Shown in pieces: positions 1-9,448 of a stretch of DNA of 9,448 bases. A model generated the notes under the pieces. It was not told where the DNA came from. It was given only the letters and a program-made list of their open reading frames with translations, and made no database searches. Source of the DNA: an uncultured Chthoniobacterales bacterium (GTDB taxonomy: Bacteria > Verrucomicrobiota > Verrucomicrobiae > Chthoniobacterales > UBA10450); the NCBI GenBank assembly GCA_955652855.1, contig CATPCN010000240.1, positions 1 to 9,448 on the forward strand, read 5' to 3'. The position numbers and the translations under genes were made by a program. Each line of letters opens with the position of its first letter. Positions within the stretch are counted from its first letter, which is position 1.

Positions 1-2
1 CA

Positions 3-1205
3 CCAGCGCAGTACCGACTCGTCCGCTTTCTGGCCGGAGACAATTTTCGAAATGTTTTCGCCGTCGCGGATGATGATCAAATCATCTATCAGTGGGCCGG
101 CGCCAGCTACCGGCAAATAGTCGCCTTTCGGGAACATTTTGTACCTGAGTTGATCCAGCTTGTTGAAAATCGCCGTTGCCCGCCGGAGGTAGTGAGGGTT
201 GCTAATAACCTGATCACTCATAACGCCGACAGGACGCCGGGAAAGGCTGCATTAACATCTACCCGACCCGATCGAGGACCCGCTATTAGCCAGCGGACCT
301 TCGGGACTGATGAGGAAGAGGCTTCCGGCATCGCTGAAGAAATCGCAGCGACGGAACCAGCCAAATGGGGTGACACCGCTGTGCTGGGACGCACCAGGGC
401 AATTTTGCAACCGGTGCTGAATGCCCTACGGGCCCGGTCAGTGAAGGCGTTCATCGTCACACGGCGCGATCGTTTCATCTCGCCGCAGTTCGTCTGGTTG
501 CAAACCTGTCTTGACCAATCGCTGCGTCCAACGGACAGGCAAGTCTTTACTGCCATGGCCGATGCAGCGAACCGAATCGCTGGGACCGAACTCGATGCTG
601 CCCTGCTTGCGGCCGAGGCTGAAGCGTCAGGCAACAGTTTTCTTGAGTACTGGGCTCTTGCGGCTAAGGCGTCTGACAATATGCTTGCATCGCGGCTTGC
701 GGAATTGGCGCTTCGCATCGTGCAATCCAGGGCAGCTTGGCGCGCGGTGGTTGATGAGGCTCTTCGTTGGTTGCCGGAAACCGCGGGAACAGCAAACGGT
801 GTAGTAACCGATGCGGCTGACGATAAGGCGGCCTGGGAAGTAGCCGCCCGTGCCATACGGGCCGAGAAGGGTGGCGCAATCGATTTGGCCGAGTTGCTAC
901 AAGGGTTGGCGCTTCGTCCAAAGGAACCCCCTCCCGATCCGGGCGCGGTAAGTCTCTTTACGATCCATTCTGCCAAAGGGTTGGAGTTTGAATACGTCTG
1001 GCTAATTGGTATGGCCGAAACCGTTCTTCCATCTTGGCAAAGTTTACAAACGAACGCTCGCCCCTCGGAGCTGGAAGAGGAACGCCGAAATTGTTTCGTG
1101 GCCATTACTCGAACTCGGCAAACCCTTGTTCTTTCGCGAGCCAGCCAGTACCGCGCCTGGCGGAAAGAACCATCCCGTTTCCTAGGGGAAATGGGCGTGC
1201 TGTAA
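3..1205 (+). CDS. UvrD/Rep-type superfamily 1 DNA helicase, C-terminal part (5' truncated by window edge)
   Basis: The frame is open from the first bases, so the true start lies outside the window; a TTG at 150 is not the start because helicase motif III lies upstream of it. About 400 residues are visible. Motif III is at residues 21-35 (VADDDQIIYQWAGAS), a motif IV-like segment at about 53-68 (LVENRRCPPEV), motif V at about 317-332 (TIHSAKGLEFEYVWL) and motif VI at about 358-372 (EEERRNCFVAITRTR), which carries the conserved arginines. Walker A and B would lie in the missing N-terminal part. The family uses ATP hydrolysis to move 3'-5' along single-stranded DNA. The C-terminal style (LPSWQ after motif V, RRNCFVAITR, PSRFLGEMG at the end) resembles helicases often encoded next to OLD-family nucleases, as in Gabija (GajA/GajB); that is recall and inference, since the upstream gene is not visible. 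It converges on the defence operon and is probably a separate transcription unit. Confidence 0.93.
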   Translation, partial: PAQYRLVRFLAGDNFRNVFAVADDDQIIYQWAGASYRQIVAFREHFVPELIQLVENRRCPPEVVRVANNLITHNADRTPGKAALTSTRPDRGPAISQRTFGTDEEEASGIAEEIAATEPAKWGDTAVLGRTRAILQPVLNALRARSVKAFIVTRRDRFISPQFVWLQTCLDQSLRPTDRQVFTAMADAANRIAGTELDAALLAAEAEASGNSFLEYWALAAKASDNMLASRLAELALRIVQSRAAWRAVVDEALRWLPETAGTANGVVTDAADDKAAWEVAARAIRAEKGGAIDLAELLQGLALRPKEPPPDPGAVSLFTIHSAKGLEFEYVWLIGMAETVLPSWQSLQTNARPSELEEERRNCFVAITRTRQTLVLSRASQYRAWRKEPSRFLGEMGVL

Positions 1206-1221
1206 AAGCAGCGCGTTGTGA

Positions 1222-4200
1222 TTATTCTTTTTCGAAGCCGTGCTGCCGGAACTTAAGAGCTTTGCAGTTCTCGGTCACGGTTCTAACGACCTGCTCACTC
1301 GCTCCGCCTGGAATCGTGCCTTCGATTTCCAGGACGACTTTAACGTCAGAGCCAACGAGCCCGGTAAGATGTGCGATTACTTCATCTGCGATCTGGCTAG
1401 CGTCCCGACCTGCCCGTTCGGGATCCAACTCGACGGAGCCGTGGAACCGACGTGGTAAAGGCGCTTTCTTCTTCTCCTCGCCAGCGTCGGCCTCGCTACT
1501 GGCATCTTGCTCTCCCGTCGCGCCACCCGCTCCGTCCGTAGGCGAATCGGGGCTACGCGTTTCAGCCTGCAGTTGCTGTCGCGCGATGTCCGGCTTTACA
1601 AGCAATCCAGGATCATCCCCATCGTAGATGGACACATTCTGGCCACCGCGGAGTCCGCGATATCTTCCAGCGGCTTCGTCATAACTCTCCGCGTAGGCGA
1701 ACGAATCTTCCGTCCAGGTGAGAAGTGTGAGGCCATCTCGGATCGCGTTGATCAACACTGACGGATTCGCTAGTCGCGGCAGGTAGATGTATCGGGCAAA
1801 ATCATCGACCAGTTGCTTTACTGCGACATGATTGCCGCGCCAGAGGGGCACCCGATCTAATTCCATTCGTAGGCGATTCGCACCGAGGCTCGGGATGAGC
1901 AGCTCTTCGCTGACGATCTTCCGACTGGCCCGAACCGCGAGGTTCTCGCTGCCAGAGAGACGCGATGCCTGCCATTCAATCGGAGCTTGGGGGCCGGCTT
2001 GCGTGGAAACGAGCAGCCACTGATACGTTTCAGGCAAACGCGCGGTGACGACACTGTCCGCCGATTTCTTTTGCGTTTCCGCTGAACGCACCTGAAATGG
2101 CGAGAGATCGAGGCTTTCCTTCTCATCGAGGATTGATTCCCACGCGAGATATTTTCGTGTCGCTTCATCCAAGTCTTGCAGGCGCACCTTGTCAGCGGCC
2201 AGAAAAACCAGCGTGTTTCGAAAGATGCGCGGCGTATTTCCACGTGTCTCAAGAATCGCTTTAGCACCGACTTCAGCGGCATTTGCAGGCTCCTTGGTGT
2301 AAGTGTCCTCAAGTCCCAGAACGACTAGGCGGGCATCGAGATCATCTGGTACATCGGCGCTGTTTCGCGGCATTGCATGCACCCGCGCGAAATTACCGCT
2401 CTTGGCAAGATCCTGGCGGAGACGGCGATCAATTTCCAACGCCACCTTGTCGCTCTCGCGCTTGAGCTGCTCAGCGCGGTCCTCGGCTAACTTTGTTACC
2501 GTTGGCTGAGTTGAGTACCAAACGCGCGGGCCATCCTGATACAAGTAAGTCGCAGCCGCGGTGAGGCGACGGAGCGCATCGCCAAAGTGAGCGGGCGATT
2601 CGCCCGGCATCACACAGCCAAGTTTCACTCGGCGATCTTCGATTCCATGGTGCGCCGCCGCCGAAGTAGGCGCCGATCCAAGATAGATTGTTCGCGCCAC
2701 ACGACGGGTAGCATGAAGTTTCCCAAGATTCGCGACTTCGCCGTCAATCCGGAGCGGAAGCGAGTTCGGTCCGTCCACATCCTTTTCGATTACTGGCACC
2801 CAGTTATCAGAGAGATATCTCGTTAGCTCAAACTGCACTCGCGGATCGTCGATCGGAATCATGCACGGCAGGATCATGGGATTCTTGTCGCCCTTTTCCC
2901 ATAAAGAGTGGATCACCGATGCCATAAGTCGCAACACGCCGCGCGTTCGTTGGAACTTCAGAAGCGTGGACCAATCAGCATACAATCGGTCGAAGATTTC
3001 AGGATGAATCGGATACGCAGCTTTCAGACGCGTTTCGTAGTCACTGTCGCGACATTCGGGCGGAAACTCTGCATGTTGCGCCCGATACAGGTCAGCAAAA
3101 GCTCGGGCAACGACATCGCGGTTCTTAAACTGATCGCCTGAAAGCGGCTCAAAAAGGCGTCGTCTTACGATTTCAAACCCTTCTTCCGCCGTAGCTGGCC
3201 GCCACGAGGATTCCAGGCGGCCGACGACATTCCGCAACCGATCAAGCGCCTCCCGTCCGCGGACACCGCCTACTTCAGTATCATCTGCTTGTGCATGCGG
3301 TGAAGTGCCAGTGTCGGACGCCGGGAGGGAGATAACGAGCAGGCAATTCCCTGCTAGCTTAGCCGACTCCGTGAGCGCCTGTGCGAAAGAAAACTGCGTC
3401 TCAAACCCGCCGGCTGGGAGATCGCTTTGATCGTGCAGTTGACGCGCGTAGGCCACCCATTCATCGATCAGGATCAGGCAGGGTCCGTGTTCTTTTAGTA
3501 ACTCCCGCAATAGATCACCAGGGCTTGTCGCATTCGCATCATCAGCGGCGATTTTGTTGAATGCTTTCTTACCACCAAGCTGGTAGGCGAGTTCGCCCCA
3601 GAACGTTCGGACCACGGTTCCATCCGGTTTGGTGCTCGGGGTACTTGGCGAAATCTTCGTGCCGACCAGCACTACCCTCTTAGCTTTTGGCAAACTTTTC
3701 ACGCCTGCCTTCGCCATAACAGCATCAACACCCGCCAAGTCTCCTGGCGTTGAACCGGAGAAAAGGTGATAGAGCGCCAGCATTGAGTGCGTCTTGCCAC
3801 CGCCAAAGTTCGTTTGAAGCTGAACGACGGGATCGCCACCCGTGCCGGAAAGGCGTTGAACCGCTCCGACAAGCATCCTTTCCAAGCTTTCGGTGAGGTA
3901 AGTGCGCCGAAAGAACTCTTTTGGATTCTTGTATTCGTCTGTGCCCTCGCCGAGATGCACCTGCCAGAGATCCGCGGCGAACTCCGCCTGTTGGTAGCGG
4001 CCGCTCGCGACATCTTTGTGCGGTGTGACCACTTCACGCCACGGCGGCAGTGCTGTGCCCGCTGCTGTCTCAATGAGCGAGCCGCCGGCCTTGCGCTTTT
4101 CGCCCCGCACCTGCTCATCGAACCGCAGGCGCAGCAGTTCCATCTTCATTTTTTCTAGCTCCGCCGATTGCGGAGCCGATACAGCCGCAAGAAGCCGACC

Positions 4201-4551
4201 AATGCTGTCAAAAACGCGATACGCGTCATCTGTGCTGAAGGGTTGCTGATGCGCCCACTTGTTGCGCACATCACGTAACTCACTCACGAGACTGCGTTCG
4301 GCGTGGCCGAGCGTCTTACGAAAAACCTCGTTCCATTGATTCCAAAGAACGCCGAGCAACATAGAAACATCCCACTCCGGCTCGCCTTTCTTTTTCACGA
4401 AGTTGAGCTGTTGTTGCGTGAGTGTGCGCTTAGTTTCCTCAAACCAATTATCGCTGTATTGCGCTTTTAGCTCTCGCTCGACGAACGGCCGCAAACCTTC
4501 GCGCAAAAGCTCCATAGCCTTACCAACTCGCTCATGATTGCTGATCGCCAT
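1222..4551 (-). CDS. Swt1-type HEPN domain fused to DUF499 AAA+-like ATPase (defence-associated)
   Basis: 1109 residues. Residues 1-125 form an all-helical domain containing RNKWAH, with R96 and H101 giving the Rx4H motif of HEPN ribonucleases; the context (ELRDVRNKWAHQQPFS) matches Swt1-type HEPN domains. A charged helical linker follows (about 129-157). The DUF499 ATPase core has a P-loop at 247-254 (TNFGGGKT, with T in place of the usual first G, apparently normal for the family) and a Walker B at 359-364 (LILIDE, D363/E364). A segment near 513-544 (YPIHPEIF, then FQRTRGVLRLMA) resembles the family's sensor-2 region. After a low-complexity acidic linker (about 997-1032) comes a small C-terminal domain (about 1033-1109) with HGSVELDPERAGRD. 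DUF499 ATPases are large defence ATPases related in general plan to BREX BrxC/PglY. It is the last gene of the operon, 12 bases after the methyltransferase stop, with a GGAA ribosome-binding-like stretch just before ATG. ATPase assignment is strong; substrate and RNase activity are inferred. Confidence 0.92.
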   Translation of the reverse strand: MAISNHERVGKAMELLREGLRPFVERELKAQYSDNWFEETKRTLTQQQLNFVKKKGEPEWDVSMLLGVLWNQWNEVFRKTLGHAERSLVSELRDVRNKWAHQQPFSTDDAYRVFDSIGRLLAAVSAPQSAELEKMKMELLRLRFDEQVRGEKRKAGGSLIETAAGTALPPWREVVTPHKDVASGRYQQAEFAADLWQVHLGEGTDEYKNPKEFFRRTYLTESLERMLVGAVQRLSGTGGDPVVQLQTNFGGGKTHSMLALYHLFSGSTPGDLAGVDAVMAKAGVKSLPKAKRVVLVGTKISPSTPSTKPDGTVVRTFWGELAYQLGGKKAFNKIAADDANATSPGDLLRELLKEHGPCLILIDEWVAYARQLHDQSDLPAGGFETQFSFAQALTESAKLAGNCLLVISLPASDTGTSPHAQADDTEVGGVRGREALDRLRNVVGRLESSWRPATAEEGFEIVRRRLFEPLSGDQFKNRDVVARAFADLYRAQHAEFPPECRDSDYETRLKAAYPIHPEIFDRLYADWSTLLKFQRTRGVLRLMASVIHSLWEKGDKNPMILPCMIPIDDPRVQFELTRYLSDNWVPVIEKDVDGPNSLPLRIDGEVANLGKLHATRRVARTIYLGSAPTSAAAHHGIEDRRVKLGCVMPGESPAHFGDALRRLTAAATYLYQDGPRVWYSTQPTVTKLAEDRAEQLKRESDKVALEIDRRLRQDLAKSGNFARVHAMPRNSADVPDDLDARLVVLGLEDTYTKEPANAAEVGAKAILETRGNTPRIFRNTLVFLAADKVRLQDLDEATRKYLAWESILDEKESLDLSPFQVRSAETQKKSADSVVTARLPETYQWLLVSTQAGPQAPIEWQASRLSGSENLAVRASRKIVSEELLIPSLGANRLRMELDRVPLWRGNHVAVKQLVDDFARYIYLPRLANPSVLINAIRDGLTLLTWTEDSFAYAESYDEAAGRYRGLRGGQNVSIYDGDDPGLLVKPDIARQQLQAETRSPDSPTDGAGGATGEQDASSEADAGEEKKKAPLPRRFHGSVELDPERAGRDASQIADEVIAHLTGLVGSDVKVVLEIEGTIPGGASEQVVRTVTENCKALKFRQHGFEKE

Positions 4552-4563
4552 ATATTCCGATCG

Positions 4564-7500
4564 CTAAAACTCCTGTTGCACCATACCGCCAACGGCGGGT
4601 GGTTGCTCTTTCCCTAAACGCATGATCTCAGGCCAGCTTTGGACGAGGCCGTTGTAGGCGAGCGCCTCGGCGGGGCGCTTTTTGCGTTCACAGAGCGTGT
4701 AAAGACGATAAGCCATTTCACGGGCCATTTCGGCCTTGGGGCCCAGCTTGGCAACCAGTTCCGCTGCTGCACCTTCGCCACCGCTCCCGAGCACGCGGAT
4801 CAGATGGTGGACAATTTCCCAAGCAGTAAGCCGCGGGTCGGTGGTCGGATCCCAGTCTGCAGCGAGTTCATCTGGCCGCAGCAGTCGCACCCTGCCGTGT
4901 TTGGATTCGAGGATTCCAGCCTCGGCCATGCCGTCTACGCTTGTGTTTTTGGACTTGGATAACTGCTCGGCTACGCCGTACTCATCATCACTGAAGCCCG
5001 ACTGCTCGAACCAGATCAGTGCCCAACGGCTATCGGCATCGAAATCGCCCTCCTGCTGGGCAAGCGCCTCGTCGAGGGTCTGGTTAATAAGCGCCAGCGC
5101 GTCGCGCACCGAGAGCGGCTTTCCCTCAGCGTCGAGCACCTTAGAGTAGTGTGTATAAACCGCCATGCCCGGACCGATGGCAGCCTGCGCCAAGTCAACT
5201 GGGGCGATATTGCCGCGCTGCAGGTTGGCAAGCGCAACTGGCAACTCGGCCTTGAGTGCGGTCACGAATTCGCGGCGGGTTGCTGTGGGCGCGTCGGTTT
5301 TTCGTGGCCGGCAGACGAGAACGATGCTCGAGGCGAGGGCGTTGGTGCCCGATGCAATCATGCGGCCCGCCCCCTCTGTTCGCATCGGCCAAGTTCCCGT
5401 AATTGCGAAACCAGCTCGAATCACGGCTTCAAGAAATGTGTCCCAACCTGTATTGGTAGTTCCCTCGTCATCATCGCTCTCGGTCTGCTTGAAGGCGTAG
5501 TAAATAGTGACTGGAAATGCCGGATGCGCCTGTTCGGCCAAGCGTCGCATAGCCTTCGTCATTCCATCGAGAAAGAACGCCTCCGCTTTCTCCTCGCCAC
5601 CATGTCGATGGGGTAAGGCGACAAGCTCCTCAGTTTTCGGAACGGTGAGCGTGGCAAAGAGGTCAGGGAACACAGGCTTTAATGATCGCCGCAGCCAGAC
5701 ATAGAAGAAGTCCGACAGATCGGCATAAGCGATGTTGTTGTAGTAAGGCGGATCTGTGCTGAAGACACAGACCTTGCCTCCGGCCACGGTAGTTTGCGCG
5801 TCGCACTGAGTCGCAACGCCAGCGGCGCAAGGCATAGCCAGTTCCAAATAATTACTGACTGAATTAGTGCAAGTGATTACATCACCGCTCGATTTTCCAA
5901 TCGGATTACATTCAGCAAAGTCCCACGTCATCGCAAGACCTTGGCGCGGCATGCAATCCCGGAGCGCGTTGTCTTTAGGAAGCCACGAAGTCAAATTCGA
6001 ACCGTAGTAGATCATCCGATCCAGCACACAAGCTAGGTAAGTACTTATGGCATCGGCATACGCAGTCACGCCATTACCGCCGGCCCGAAGAGGTGTCTTA
6101 TCGTTGGAAAGGTTTGCCGCCAGTGCATCGCGTTCAACCTTTTCACGTGCCTCCTGCACCAAGTCGGAGAACGTCGTCAGCGCAACGAGCTGCCGGGCGG
6201 TGAAAAGGTTGCCCCACCGCTCTAGCCCATAGGGTACGCAGGTGCCTCCAGTGAGACGCGCCGGGACGTCGCCCTCTGGCTTCCATTCTGGACTTCTGCT
6301 CCGCGCTAGCGTCTCCATCGCCGTGGTCGGCGACAAGAACACTCGTCCGCGCTCACCTTCGGCGACCATTGCCATAAGGCGCTCGCCCATTCGGCCAGAC
6401 TTCGCCTCGGCGCGGATGTACTCATATCCAATAGGCACGCCTGAAATTAAGCAGGTGAAGGCCTTTCGTTTTCCCGCTGAAGTTCCCGTCGTCGCTGCCG
6501 CGGTGTTCTTTGGTTTGCCAACCTTTACGGTAAAGCGATAGCTCCCATTTTCGATAACCGGTTCGACATAGACCTCCTTGCCAGCCTTAGTGGAAAGCAT
6601 GAACGTCGAAGCAAGCGGCACATCTACCTTAGCGAAGGCCGGGTTCGGGCTTTTTACCGTGCGCGCCCAAATCCAAGCGATGACGGTGAGCTTCTGTCCC
6701 TCGTATTTCTTCAGGTCTGGCCGCTCTTTTGCCATGGACGCTGTCACCTCAACCTTGGGGTAAAGGTCGCCGATGCGTTTCTCAGCTTCGTCCCGCATCC
6801 ATCGACCGTAGTAGCGCACATCCTCAGCGAGTCCCCGCGCGCCCTGCCACCCCCGATCTATAAGTGACTTGTCCTTGCGTGACTCAGGATTTACTGGCGG
6901 CTTAGCCGCAAAGTTGGACGGGATCTCGATTATTGCCTTGTTAATTAGCACTGCCACCGGATTCAGATCGCTAGCGTAGCTCTCCAAACCGAACCATTGG
7001 GCTGAGAGTGGCAGGCTCCCGCTTCCCGCGAATGGGTCGCAGAATGGCGGCAACTTCTGCCGATCGAACAACTCCTTTGCCCGCGGGTGGTCGGCATTTT
7101 CAGCACATGTCCGCCGCCAGCTCTGCCAGATTTCATCGCGCGCGGCCTCCAGCACCGCCCCGTTCATTGTGTTGTCCCACAGAACGAGATCTTCAATGAT
7201 GCCGAAGAGCCGCTGGCGTTCCTGGTCGGCCAAAGTGTCGTCGAGGGTTGGGGCCGGACCGGGTTCCGGAACCGATAGTCCAGTTCCTTTCGTCTTTTTT
7301 GCGAGGGCCGCCGCTTCCTCCCACAGCTTGAGACGAGCCTTGAGCGCGCTTTCAGCCTTGCGACGTAACTTTTGGTCCGAGCGGAGTACGTCCAAATAGA
7401 TCGAAGGGTCATCGACCATCTGCGCGAATATCACCGCCCTTGCCGCTGCCAACGGACGTTGAGCCCACCACTTATGGAACGAGGTCGGCCAACCTTTGGG

Positions 7501-7593
7501 AGCCTTTTGCTTTCTGCGCAGGGACTCCAAGTTGATAGCCTCCAGAGGCAACGCGACCTCAATGAGTTTCTTGCGCAGTTTGATCTGTTCCAT
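4564..7593 (-). CDS. DUF1156 domain-containing adenine-specific DNA methyltransferase
   Basis: 1009 residues. The N-terminus (KKLIEVALPLEAIN, then SFHKWWAQRPLAAARAVIFA, residues 9-57) is the DUF1156 signature. The SAM-binding motif I is DPFAGSG at 186-192 and the catalytic motif IV is DPPY at 614-617, which is typical of N6-adenine amino-methyltransferases. Motif I precedes motif IV by about 420 residues, giving an alpha-like order with a large insert that could hold target recognition. The region corresponding to the zinc ribbon of COG1743-type methylases has lost most of its cysteines (S315, F320, C381, S384). The expected role is to methylate host DNA at a specific site so that the partner proteins ignore it; the recognition sequence cannot be read from the protein. 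Its ATG follows the HEPN stop codon directly, and the DUF499 ATPase gene begins 12 bases after its own stop. DUF1156/DUF499 pairs are recurrent in defence islands. No nuclease domain is visible in it. Confidence 0.93.
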   Translation of the reverse strand: MEQIKLRKKLIEVALPLEAINLESLRRKQKAPKGWPTSFHKWWAQRPLAAARAVIFAQMVDDPSIYLDVLRSDQKLRRKAESALKARLKLWEEAAALAKKTKGTGLSVPEPGPAPTLDDTLADQERQRLFGIIEDLVLWDNTMNGAVLEAARDEIWQSWRRTCAENADHPRAKELFDRQKLPPFCDPFAGSGSLPLSAQWFGLESYASDLNPVAVLINKAIIEIPSNFAAKPPVNPESRKDKSLIDRGWQGARGLAEDVRYYGRWMRDEAEKRIGDLYPKVEVTASMAKERPDLKKYEGQKLTVIAWIWARTVKSPNPAFAKVDVPLASTFMLSTKAGKEVYVEPVIENGSYRFTVKVGKPKNTAAATTGTSAGKRKAFTCLISGVPIGYEYIRAEAKSGRMGERLMAMVAEGERGRVFLSPTTAMETLARSRSPEWKPEGDVPARLTGGTCVPYGLERWGNLFTARQLVALTTFSDLVQEAREKVERDALAANLSNDKTPLRAGGNGVTAYADAISTYLACVLDRMIYYGSNLTSWLPKDNALRDCMPRQGLAMTWDFAECNPIGKSSGDVITCTNSVSNYLELAMPCAAGVATQCDAQTTVAGGKVCVFSTDPPYYNNIAYADLSDFFYVWLRRSLKPVFPDLFATLTVPKTEELVALPHRHGGEEKAEAFFLDGMTKAMRRLAEQAHPAFPVTIYYAFKQTESDDDEGTTNTGWDTFLEAVIRAGFAITGTWPMRTEGAGRMIASGTNALASSIVLVCRPRKTDAPTATRREFVTALKAELPVALANLQRGNIAPVDLAQAAIGPGMAVYTHYSKVLDAEGKPLSVRDALALINQTLDEALAQQEGDFDADSRWALIWFEQSGFSDDEYGVAEQLSKSKNTSVDGMAEAGILESKHGRVRLLRPDELAADWDPTTDPRLTAWEIVHHLIRVLGSGGEGAAAELVAKLGPKAEMAREMAYRLYTLCERKKRPAEALAYNGLVQSWPEIMRLGKEQPPAVGGMVQQEF

Positions 7594-7596
7594 TCA
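7591..7596 (-). promoter_or_regulatory. Stop/start junction TGA-ATG coupling HEPN and methyltransferase translation
   Basis: Read on the minus strand, the HEPN stop TGA (7596-7594) is followed without a gap by the methyltransferase ATG (7593-7591). Such abutting codons usually mean that ribosomes finishing the first gene re-initiate on the second. The upstream purine-rich run coding for the KKM tail of the HEPN protein could act as ribosome-binding sequence. This ties methyltransferase synthesis to synthesis of the putative toxic RNase. Confidence 0.6.
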
Positions 7597-8115
7597 GGTC
7601 ATCTTCTTCTCAAGATATTCGACGAACTGCGTCGCGTCGTTATATAGCTGAAAGACTTCGTCTGCAGTCTTATCGCAACTAAATATAGCGAAGTTCTGAT
7701 GCACCATACAGTTGCGTAGGTGTCCGAGCTCTAAGAAGCGCGAGGCCGCGCTTTTCAGCTTTTCGTCCCCATTGACTTCGGCCTTCATCTCGGCCCCTAA
7801 CTCATCGCCAAACAAATTAAAGAACGTGTTGCAGCCGCTCGCCTTGTCCCACGTGAATAGTTTGAAGTATTGGCCTTCTATTGCCTTTCGTTTTACGAAC
7901 GACATCAACCCCGAGTCGCCGGCCGTCCTCTTAGCCATGAAGGCCAAGAGTATTTGGACGATCCGTTCCTCAAACAGACTCGCCGCCGCTAGAGCGAGGG
8001 TCTTTCGAAAGCTGTCCTCCGCGACCTGAAGATGCGATATTTCATTGTTCTTCGTCAGGTACTCAACCAAGGCTTGGTTGCCAGCGTACAGGCTCTCGAT
8101 GATTCCCTGCGCCAT
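7594..8115 (-). CDS. Stand-alone HEPN domain protein, RiboL-PSP-HEPN-like, predicted RNase
   Basis: 173 residues, predicted helical and soluble, with no signal peptide or membrane segment. The segment GHLRNCMVHQNF (residues 131-142) holds R134 and H139, the Rx4H motif of catalytic HEPN domains, with the usual polar N after R. Upstream features fit RiboL-PSP-type HEPN families: AAASLFEERIVQIL (44-57), SFVKRKAIEGQYFKLFTWD (72-90) and NLFGDE (100-105). Such proteins are metal-independent RNases in toxin and abortive-infection systems, working as dimers; activity here is inferred from the motif. DUF262 genes are commonly found beside small HEPN genes, and this gene follows a DUF262 gene by 6 bases, suggesting a functional pair. 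Its TGA stop abuts the methyltransferase ATG, so the two are likely translationally coupled. The exact HEPN subfamily (RiboL-PSP or MAE_28990-like) is less certain than the HEPN call. Confidence 0.85.
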   Translation of the reverse strand: MAQGIIESLYAGNQALVEYLTKNNEISHLQVAEDSFRKTLALAAASLFEERIVQILLAFMAKRTAGDSGLMSFVKRKAIEGQYFKLFTWDKASGCNTFFNLFGDELGAEMKAEVNGDEKLKSAASRFLELGHLRNCMVHQNFAIFSCDKTADEVFQLYNDATQFVEYLEKKMT

Positions 8116-8124
8116 GACAACCTA
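8116..8124 (-). promoter_or_regulatory. Ribosome-binding-like TAGG overlapping the DUF262 stop codon
   Basis: On the minus strand the DUF262 stop TAG is followed by G, giving TAGG with five bases (TTGTC) before the HEPN ATG. It is a short match to the anti-Shine-Dalgarno complement at usable spacing, and supports ATG at 8115 as the HEPN start. Weak on its own. Confidence 0.4.
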
Positions 8125-9324
8125 CAAAAGAAGCTCTCTCGCTCTGTTTATTCTGATCGTAACATTGGTGGTGCCTGCCGTGTCTTTTTGAGTTGCCTCC
8201 GTGAACTCAGGATCAGCTTTCAGCGCCTGCAGTTTGCTGGGATCGATGGGATGAATCACAAGTGATTGATCCTTAAACGCCTGCCTACAGACCGCCGTGA
8301 ACACGGCTTCATACATTGATATATTGAACTTCCCGGTAACCTTTCCGAAAAACGCGCGCTCGTTCAGGCCCGCAGCAGCATCCAAAAAAGACGTGAATAA
8401 GCTCTTTAAATATACAATGTCCTCTGCCGAACAATTCTTACACTTTCGTGAGAAGGCATTCAGAAACTTCGCCATCGAAGGTTTATAATTGTTGCCGTCC
8501 ACCAACATCGCGAAGCCTCGCAACAAAATTTCGAAATCCTTCATGTGTAAATCTGGCTCCGCGAAGCCCAGTAGCCGTCGCCATCTCTGATCGAGATTTA
8601 CTTCGTGAAGCATGTCGTAGAACGGAGAGTGATACAGGCTTCCGCGAATTTCTTGGGGCTTTAAATTCACGCCGCCAGAGTTCAAGCGATTAAAGATTTC
8701 GTATATCGACGAGTCGTCCTCCTCAGGAGAGTTCTGTTTGATGATGACGTTACGAATAGTACGTAACTCAAAGGTCCCCCTATATTGATCTAACGTAGAA
8801 TAATTCAGGCGCCGGAGTTTGTTCGGCACACCCGGGAGGTGTTCAGGTAGCTGCAGATTGAACTTCGTGAAGAAGCTGTCGTCTTCGAGCGTCTCAGCAG
8901 GGATTTTCCCAAACTGGTCGAAAATGTGCCTGAGTTCGATTCGCTTCTCCTTCCTGGGAAATCGCTGCTTGATAAAGTAGTAGATCGACATCAATCGCTG
9001 TTGACCATCGATCACAAGGAAACGGTTACGAGATTCCTCGTATAGAAATATTTGAGGGATCGGAAGTCCGATGATAATCGACTCGATGAGCTTCGACGCC
9101 CGCTTAATGTCCCAGACATAATTGCGTTGAAAGCCAGGTATCTTCACTGCACCCGACTCAATAAAGGAGTGCATGGTTGAAATATTGAAGTCATTGGGAG
9201 ACGCCGTGATGTCATATTCGCGAAGTTCGTACTCTTCTGCTTCGGCACTATCTCCCTCGAACCAGTTTTGTGATCCGGCGCGGTCCGCTAGCATCGGGGA
9301 TTCTGTCTCGTCTTCTTCTGTCAT
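8122..9324 (-). CDS. DUF262 domain protein (ParB/GmrS-like), lacking a DUF1524 nuclease domain
   Basis: 400 residues. After an acidic, probably disordered N-terminus (about 1-45), the DUF262 domain shows FQRNYVW (65-71), LIESIIIGLPIPQIFLYEE (79-97), the key motif IDGQQR (105-110), and IYEIFNRLNSGGVNLKPQEIR (207-227, split here by family conservation at FNRLNSGG and PQEIR). This ParB-like fold occurs in GmrSD, BrxU and SspE, where the DGQQR region is tied to NTP hydrolysis and to sensing modified DNA. Those enzymes carry a C-terminal DUF1524 HNH nuclease; here residues 230-400 show no HNH signature, and a HEPN gene follows instead. The likely role is sensing or switching for the HEPN partner or the system as a whole (inference). 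The first ATG is chosen because it keeps the acidic leader, but no strong ribosome-binding site precedes it; M11 is a possible alternative. The gene is AT-richer than parts of the methyltransferase. Confidence 0.9.
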   Translation of the reverse strand: MTEEDETESPMLADRAGSQNWFEGDSAEAEEYELREYDITASPNDFNISTMHSFIESGAVKIPGFQRNYVWDIKRASKLIESIIIGLPIPQIFLYEESRNRFLVIDGQQRLMSIYYFIKQRFPRKEKRIELRHIFDQFGKIPAETLEDDSFFTKFNLQLPEHLPGVPNKLRRLNYSTLDQYRGTFELRTIRNVIIKQNSPEEDDSSIYEIFNRLNSGGVNLKPQEIRGSLYHSPFYDMLHEVNLDQRWRRLLGFAEPDLHMKDFEILLRGFAMLVDGNNYKPSMAKFLNAFSRKCKNCSAEDIVYLKSLFTSFLDAAAGLNERAFFGKVTGKFNISMYEAVFTAVCRQAFKDQSLVIHPIDPSKLQALKADPEFTEATQKDTAGTTNVTIRINRARELLL

Positions 9325-9337
9325 AATAGCGGTCTAA

Positions 9338-9448
9338 TTATCCCGGAGGATGGGCTCGTTTGATTACTTCACTAAAGTCGTAATTCACACTCGTCACCCC
9401 AAAATCCGGTTCTCGGCGAAATGGCTGGCGAAGGTAATGGACCTGGTG
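9338..9448 (-). CDS. Possible 3' end of an upstream co-directional gene (partial, unidentified)
   Basis: On the minus strand a frame is open from the window edge and ends with TAA at 9338-9340. It gives about 36 residues ending NYDFSEVIKRAHPPG. I do not recognise the family. The stop lies 13 bases upstream of the DUF262 start, matching the tight spacing of the other genes in the operon (6, 0 and 12 bases), which is the main argument for it. A plus-strand frame from ATG at 9350 is also open to the edge (33 codons, higher third-position GC), so this call is tentative. If it is real, the operon has at least five genes and its promoter is outside the window. Confidence 0.35.
   Translation of the reverse strand, partial: HQVHYLRQPFRREPDFGVTSVNYDFSEVIKRAHPPG

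Follow-up and report, generated by a model that had tools for sequence, protein, structure and literature searches.

The Hma system was named in 2021 as an operon of a helicase, a methylase and an ATPase that often occurs together with Septu (PMC8565338), and in 2026 it was reclassified in Nucleic Acids Research as a BREX-related (BR) type 1 system (PMC12839542). In the account given there, a helicase-nuclease restricts foreign DNA, a DUF499 ATPase assembles the scanning complex and a methylase marks self DNA. That study also reports a HEPN domain fused to DUF499 in 1370 of 2446 taxa, a fusion already noted in 2013 (PMC3710099), as well as auxiliary nucleases, including HEPN and GmrSD types, inside or beside BR loci; in 79% of taxa the helicase itself bears a nuclease at its C-terminus (PMC12839542). 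Here we analyze a 9,448-nucleotide (nt) stretch of DNA from an uncultured Chthoniobacterales bacterium (contig CATPCN010000240.1, positions 1 to 9,448; hereafter the window), in which a pair of genes coding for a DUF262 protein and a HEPN protein lies inside an operon of this type.

The gene pair has described relatives of its own. PD-T4-2, an anti-T4 system of E. coli ECOR65, is listed for both DUF262 and the PF18735 HEPN family (PMC10952713), and its deletion from the native strain greatly raised T4 plaquing (PMC9519451). DUF262 is a nucleoside triphosphatase (NTPase) that in BrxU and SspE couples the recognition of modified DNA to a nuclease (PMC10952713). The 2013 HEPN survey contains a Ribo L-PSP-HEPN entry, “operon with ParB”, that places the same HEPN family beside a ParB-fold gene; the entry is one table line, and the portion of the survey consulted gives no DUF499 or methylase link for the family (PMC3710099). 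Since the survey also labels DUF262 as ParB, the DUF262-HEPN pairing has been seen before.

With a probability of about 0.72, we read the locus as an Hma (BR type 1) anti-phage operon with the layout hmaA-cargo-hmaB-hmaC, in whose hmaA-hmaB interval a PD-T4-2-like DUF262-HEPN cassette is nested as a second, self-sufficient layer. What is established here directly is which genes these are, their order, the conservation of motifs, the independence of the cassette and the fact that it recurs between hmaA and hmaB. As predicted from the translations, the order is hmaA (3' end)-DUF262-HEPN-hmaB-hmaC, with the contig ending inside hmaA:

9338..9448, minus strand: predicted 3' end of hmaA (SNF2-type helicase), comprising the stop and the 36 codons before it (translation; matches to the HmaA-cluster C-terminus)
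8122..9324, minus strand: DUF262 / GmrSD_N (ParB-like) protein, 400 amino acids (aa), with DGQQR; first cassette gene
7594..8115, minus strand: HEPN protein of the RiboL-PSP type, 173 aa, with RNxxxH; second cassette gene (PF18735, E 4e-13)
4564..7593, minus strand: hmaB, DUF1156 DNA methyltransferase, 1009 aa (PADLOC HmaB; PF06634, E 8e-17; motifs)
1222..4551, minus strand: hmaC, HEPN_Swt1 plus DUF499 AAA+ ATPase, 1109 aa (PADLOC HmaC; PF04465, E 2e-27; PF18731, E 2e-41)
4177..4521, minus strand: HEPN_Swt1 domain of HmaC, residues 11-125, with RNKWAH (PF18731; motif scan)

The original prediction for this DNA described the last four genes of the operon as co-directional, separated by 6, 0 and 12 nt, with their key motifs intact, and the coordinates bear this out. 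All four lie on the minus strand; the spacing from the hmaA stop through DUF262, HEPN and hmaB to hmaC is 13, 6, 0 and 12 nt, and neither the four genes nor 9338-9448 (minus) contain internal stops. Each motif is present, namely DGQQR at residue 106 of the DUF262 protein, Rx4H as RNCMVH at residue 134 of the HEPN protein, DPFAGSG at 186 and DPPY at 614 of HmaB, and in HmaC the Walker B motif LILIDE at 359 together with the P-loop GGGKTH, which was read from the translation. The proposal of a defence-type operon that pairs DUF262 (GmrSD_N, ParB-like) with HEPN, next to DUF1156 methylase and DUF499 ATPase genes, is likewise supported. The operon is longer than was reported at that point, as the end of hmaA had been missed; the HEPN_Swt1 domain of the DUF499 protein had been missed too. 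A single contig, of 9448 bases, is listed for the HEPN and HmaB proteins of the window, which places the bulk of hmaA beyond its end.

The identity of the core follows from several matches. Against PADLOC the methylase matches HmaB at 1449 bits, and the DUF499 ATPase, whose gene lies 12 nt downstream of hmaB, matches HmaC at 1151 bits; the suggestion that this is an unrecognised system thus gives way to Hma as described in PMC8565338 and PMC12839542. The peptide encoded by 9338-9448 matches 66 of 70 HmaA-cluster proteins (best 80% over 35 aa, E 9e-17), and 65 of these 66 alignments end at most 12 residues from the C-terminus of the cluster protein. Nine matches fall outside the HmaA cluster; the strong one (L025, E 6.5e-12) is a 97-residue fragment at a locus edge, upstream of hmaB, and the next best has an E of 0.67. 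One member of the cluster, L029:2442-6032, scores 1667 bits as HmaA, and HmaA relatives are SNF2-type helicases with a C-terminal NOV_C domain (L001, L029). The additional N-terminal HEPN_Swt1 domain of the DUF499 protein (residues 11-125, E 2e-41) carries its RNKWAH motif at 96. The window resembles Hma in scores above 1,100 bits each for HmaB and HmaC, in the HmaA C-terminus, in gene order and in the HEPN-DUF499 fusion, but differs in having two extra genes between hmaA and hmaB. PglZ, of BREX proper, is absent from the families listed for the window genes (PADLOC, Pfam) on this contig, which is cut at both ends.

Within the cassette, Pfam assigns the DUF262 protein to GmrSD_N and the HEPN protein to HEPN_RiboL-PSP (PF18735). 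Among PADLOC profiles the DUF262 protein matches NsnA (204 bits) and PD-T4-2_A (138 bits, E 1e-40), and the HEPN gene has no PADLOC match, NsnB included. An alignment of 23 HEPN proteins leaves R134 and H139 as the only invariant residues, and the nearest structural matches of the DUF262 fold are BrxU (best) and SspE. The protein shares this fold and DGQQR with GmrSD, BrxU, SspE and DndI, but unlike them it shows no detected DUF1524/HNH (no Pfam match at E 0.01, and no HNH-like motif by pattern scan), and its presumed effector is the separate HEPN. HEPN-MNT toxin-antitoxin pairs are similar in having a HEPN-type fold with RNxxxH, although here the partner is DUF262 and not MNT. PD-T4-2 is alike in that both combine a DUF262 protein with a PF18735 HEPN; it is unlike in that the window HEPN misses the PD-T4-2_B profile, which phage (L084) and plasmid (L086) copies of the cassette reach weakly (E 4e-4). 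On these profile matches we call the pair PD-T4-2-like only. Longer DUF262 relatives of about 510-560 aa and 61-67% identity also exist (P0014, P0058 and others), of which P0058 adds a PF14338 domain.

The DUF262 and HEPN genes form a two-gene unit that is able to occur alone on plasmids, in phages and on chromosomes. Among 33 viral contigs recovered with a DUF262 alignment, a HEPN found by profile lies directly downstream in 21, and in 8 the next protein is of the RNxxxH type by a pattern that is loose for such distant partners; some contigs recur between searches. For the other 4, L106 ends at the gene, L130 has a truncated next frame, and neither L134 nor L135 shows such a partner. Neither HmaB nor HmaC was found in the flanks examined of these 33 contigs. 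An Exiguobacterium plasmid also has the pair, next to a tyrosine recombinase; Akkermansia phage Chambord has it after a C5-cytosine methylase, and E. coli plasmids carry it too. Across plasmids, phage contigs and chromosomes, DUF262-HEPN pairs seem to make up a broad family that resembles PD-T4-2. Proximity to a tyrosine recombinase gene, observed at L083:7983-11005 (annotated) and L081:8250-11732 (by eye), suggests a possible route of movement. In phage Chambord (L084:3872-6682) methylase, DUF262 and HEPN stand in a row, possibly as a three-gene modification-linked module, and a 3948-base E. coli plasmid (L086) has 4 annotated genes that include DUF262-HEPN and a VbhA-family antitoxin.

How often the cassette resides in Hma was assessed in two ways. 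Relatives of hmaB were taken as the best 80 of 447 loci, with HmaC on the same locus in 76 of the 80. Both hmaA and hmaB were parsed in 63 loci, a set that omits L016, L019 and L060, where hmaB was lost to an antisense open reading frame (ORF) in ORF picking, and 14 loci with no hmaA ORF parsed upstream. A profile of the window HEPN matches a single one of the 80 loci (L029), and the cassette occupies 1/63 parsed hmaA-hmaB intervals. Genome searches with the HEPN alignment were positive in 5/394, 3/398, 1/399, 1/294 and 1/297 genomes; these draws overlap somewhat, and the phylum given for a genome is that of its draw. In 4 of the 11 HEPN-positive genomes the cassette lies between hmaA and hmaB:

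G001 (locus L029), Chlorobiaceae: cassette in the hmaA-hmaB interval; chosen centre of its own draw
G362 (locus L136), same phylum draw as G001: cassette in the hmaA-hmaB interval
G323 (locus L141), same phylum draw as G001: cassette in the hmaA-hmaB interval
G1715 (locus L148), Acidobacteriota draw: cassette in the hmaA-hmaB interval, plus three further cargo genes, one of them of TmtA length

In 6 of the 11 the cassette has no Hma gene in the stretch examined (contigs of 5-7 kb for G454 and G596), and by eye its neighbours in L137 and L144 are housekeeping-like, for example gyrase in L137. Genome G209 (L140) holds a broken cassette copy beside a ptuA fragment; the remnants of DUF262, HEPN and ptuA span L140:450-1980 with no hma gene in the 12 kb examined, and are perhaps eroded Hma-Septu cargo.

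Comparison of two close Hma loci provides a view of one such insertion. L029 and L044 are 84-86% identical on both sides of a cassette insert of about 1.9 kb that lies between hmaA and ptuA in L029 alone. In the DUF262 tree, the Hma-borne copies, that of the window included, are not monophyletic and require at least 2 changes; a single origin of the Hma-borne cassettes was rejected on this tree (p-AU, approximately unbiased test, 0.00015). One well-supported group unites the copies from the Chlorobi and the Acidobacteriota with the standalone L144 and 7 further copies without known genomic context. This phylogeny requires at least two entries of the cassette into Hma. The presence/absence pair and the tree together show that a two-gene cassette capable of standing alone has repeatedly entered one particular interval of a widespread BREX-related operon.

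We consider it somewhat unlikely that the cassette landed passively in a defence island, by chance and with no functional tie to Hma. The original prediction had tied such a chance insertion to rarity of the pair beside DUF1156/DUF499 in other genomes: the outcome is mixed, the pair being rare in Hma loci (a single occupied interval among 63) and often located elsewhere, yet present in the hmaA-hmaB interval of 4/11 HEPN-positive genomes (one being the centre of its own draw), which makes this more than a one-off chance insertion. Low GC (guanine plus cytosine) content of the cassette genes (47.6 and 51.0%) relative to hmaB and hmaC (57.7 and 56.5%) and to a neighbouring GajB-like gene (57.1%) suggests a recent arrival, though the 111-base hmaA tail is likewise low at 50.5%. 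Against passive insertion stand the recurrence in this one interval across two phylum draws as well as the window, with at least two entries, and a co-directional, nearly gapless placement that is usual for that interval. Under a crude null that assigns Hma 0.25% of each genome, p is 1.9e-6 for 3/10 genomes and 1.7e-4 with lineages counted once (2/8), but this null is too easy to beat because defence genes cluster.

Most of the parsed relatives carry defence modules of various kinds between hmaA and hmaB. This interval exceeds 400 nt in 50/63 loci and is under 160 nt in 11/63, compared with 29/68 and 36/68 for the hmaB-hmaC interval. Of the ORFs of at least 140 aa within it, 92/100 are co-directional, versus 177/327 in the flanks (Fisher p 2e-13), and these 92 proteins fall into 45 sequence clusters. 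Among the families listed for them by Pfam and PADLOC are AAA_21/AAA_15 ATPases (11), sacsin-like TmtA (10), GmrSD_N (8), RloB (5) and Schlafen AlbA_2 (5), and Septu PtuAB and AbiL were identified in representative cargo proteins. Counted by cluster, TmtA is present in 8/63 loci, a 570-aa GmrSD_N protein in 7/63, AbiL in 5/63 and Septu in 3/63. The nearest hmaB relatives, L001 (sister; Shimodaira-Hasegawa-like approximate likelihood-ratio test, SH-aLRT, 98) and L002, carry cargo different from that of the window: HEC-07 in L001, and AbiL-cluster genes with a GmrSD_N protein in L002. It is conceivable, if doubtful, that this interval is a dedicated exchangeable effector bay, in which a fixed Hma sensing and restriction core is served by swapped defence modules that are co-expressed with and licensed by Hma and fire when a phage disarms it; that Septu, AbiL, TmtA, GmrSD-like proteins and DUF262-HEPN are the modules of such a bay is doubtful to the same degree. 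Septu genes occur in the hmaA-hmaB interval of the Hma loci L029, L044, L136 and L141, with or without DUF262-HEPN, and the hmaB match of L136 is split into two pieces about 700 bases apart. The hmaB-hmaC interval is a second cargo interval, containing protein kinase-FHA-TPR proteins, AAA ATPases, Schlafen and others.

A tighter coupling, in which DUF262 acts as an integrated guard that reads either the methylation set by HmaB or the condition of the HmaABC complex and sets off HEPN upon inhibition of Hma or a change in self-methylation, strikes us as improbable. The common strand and short gaps of the operon would suit it, as would the Hma-borne copies of two phylum draws within one supported DUF262 group and the phage copy directly behind a C5-cytosine methylase. 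Yet the same cassette occurs on plasmids, phage contigs and chromosomes with neither HmaB nor HmaC in the stretch examined, and the DUF262 group with Hma-borne copies also includes the standalone L144, which means that Hma cannot be a general requirement of the pair; moreover, the hmaA-hmaB interval accepts many unrelated cargos. To our knowledge DUF262 is not a typical antitoxin, which counts against what we hold to be the least credible reading, that the two genes are mainly a toxin-antitoxin-like addiction pair, with a HEPN toxin silenced by DUF262, and that this pair stabilises the operon, with defence as a side effect. This reading is also opposed by the NTPase-type sensor fold of DUF262 in studied proteins (PMC10952713) and by the isolation of the related PD-T4-2 for phage defence (PMC9519451).

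We return to an Hma operon with a nested, self-sufficient DUF262-HEPN layer. From the literature on relatives, HmaB would methylate self DNA, and HmaC, an AAA+ ATPase, together with HmaA, an SNF2-type helicase with a C-terminal nuclease-like domain, would scan for phage DNA that lacks the modification and restrict it; within HmaC, the HEPN_Swt1 domain may serve as a backup ribonuclease (RNase). By analogy, the most likely role of the cassette is to detect a cue of infection and to cleave RNA: the DUF262 NTPase, with the fold of the BrxU/SspE modified-DNA sensors, would perceive the cue and release or activate the HEPN RNase, so that translation stops and the infection is aborted. We infer from such relatives the trigger of the cassette, its RNase activity and its backing up of Hma. 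The earlier claim that the output of the operon is RNA cleavage rather than DNA cleavage is unsupported because the hmaA end is present, and the helicase-nuclease is taken as the DNA-restricting effector in PMC12839542.

Several observations weigh against this account. The NsnA profile outscores PD-T4-2_A on the DUF262 protein, and the window HEPN has no match to PD-T4-2_B even at E 10, so that equivalence with PD-T4-2 rests on the DUF262 half, the gene order and the common Pfam family. The BrxU match has a root-mean-square deviation of 17.5 over 280, that is, the domains agree and the domain arrangement does not. The HEPN frame in G323 is just about 89-90 aa (L141, L092), and the pair can thus decay in place. 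Additionally, the window holds only the last 36 residues of hmaA, and the evidence that the Hma helicase acts against phage comes second-hand, through PMC12839542.

The locus is an intact-looking defence operon of the known Hma type that houses a PD-T4-2-like cassette, an example of one defence system inside another; its parts are known, embedded effectors are a published theme, and it is not a new kind of immunity. The DUF262-HEPN pair is not named in the portion of PMC12839542 consulted, where embedded effectors in general are described, and the exact hmaA-DUF262-HEPN-hmaB-hmaC arrangement was not met in the literature searched. Whether nested systems cooperate or merely co-travel becomes directly testable in one operon.

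Two neighbouring genes may add further defence functions. Positions 3-1205 of the window (plus strand), convergent with hmaC, encode part of a UvrD-type helicase, its C-terminal two thirds, with a match to Gabija GajB (PDLC00114, E 4e-144), possibly a second defence system next door whose GajA, if present, lies beyond the contig. In the related locus L044, a DUF4062-NACHT-FGE-sulfatase protein (1018-4221) is encoded directly upstream of hmaA and is a possible further defence gene.

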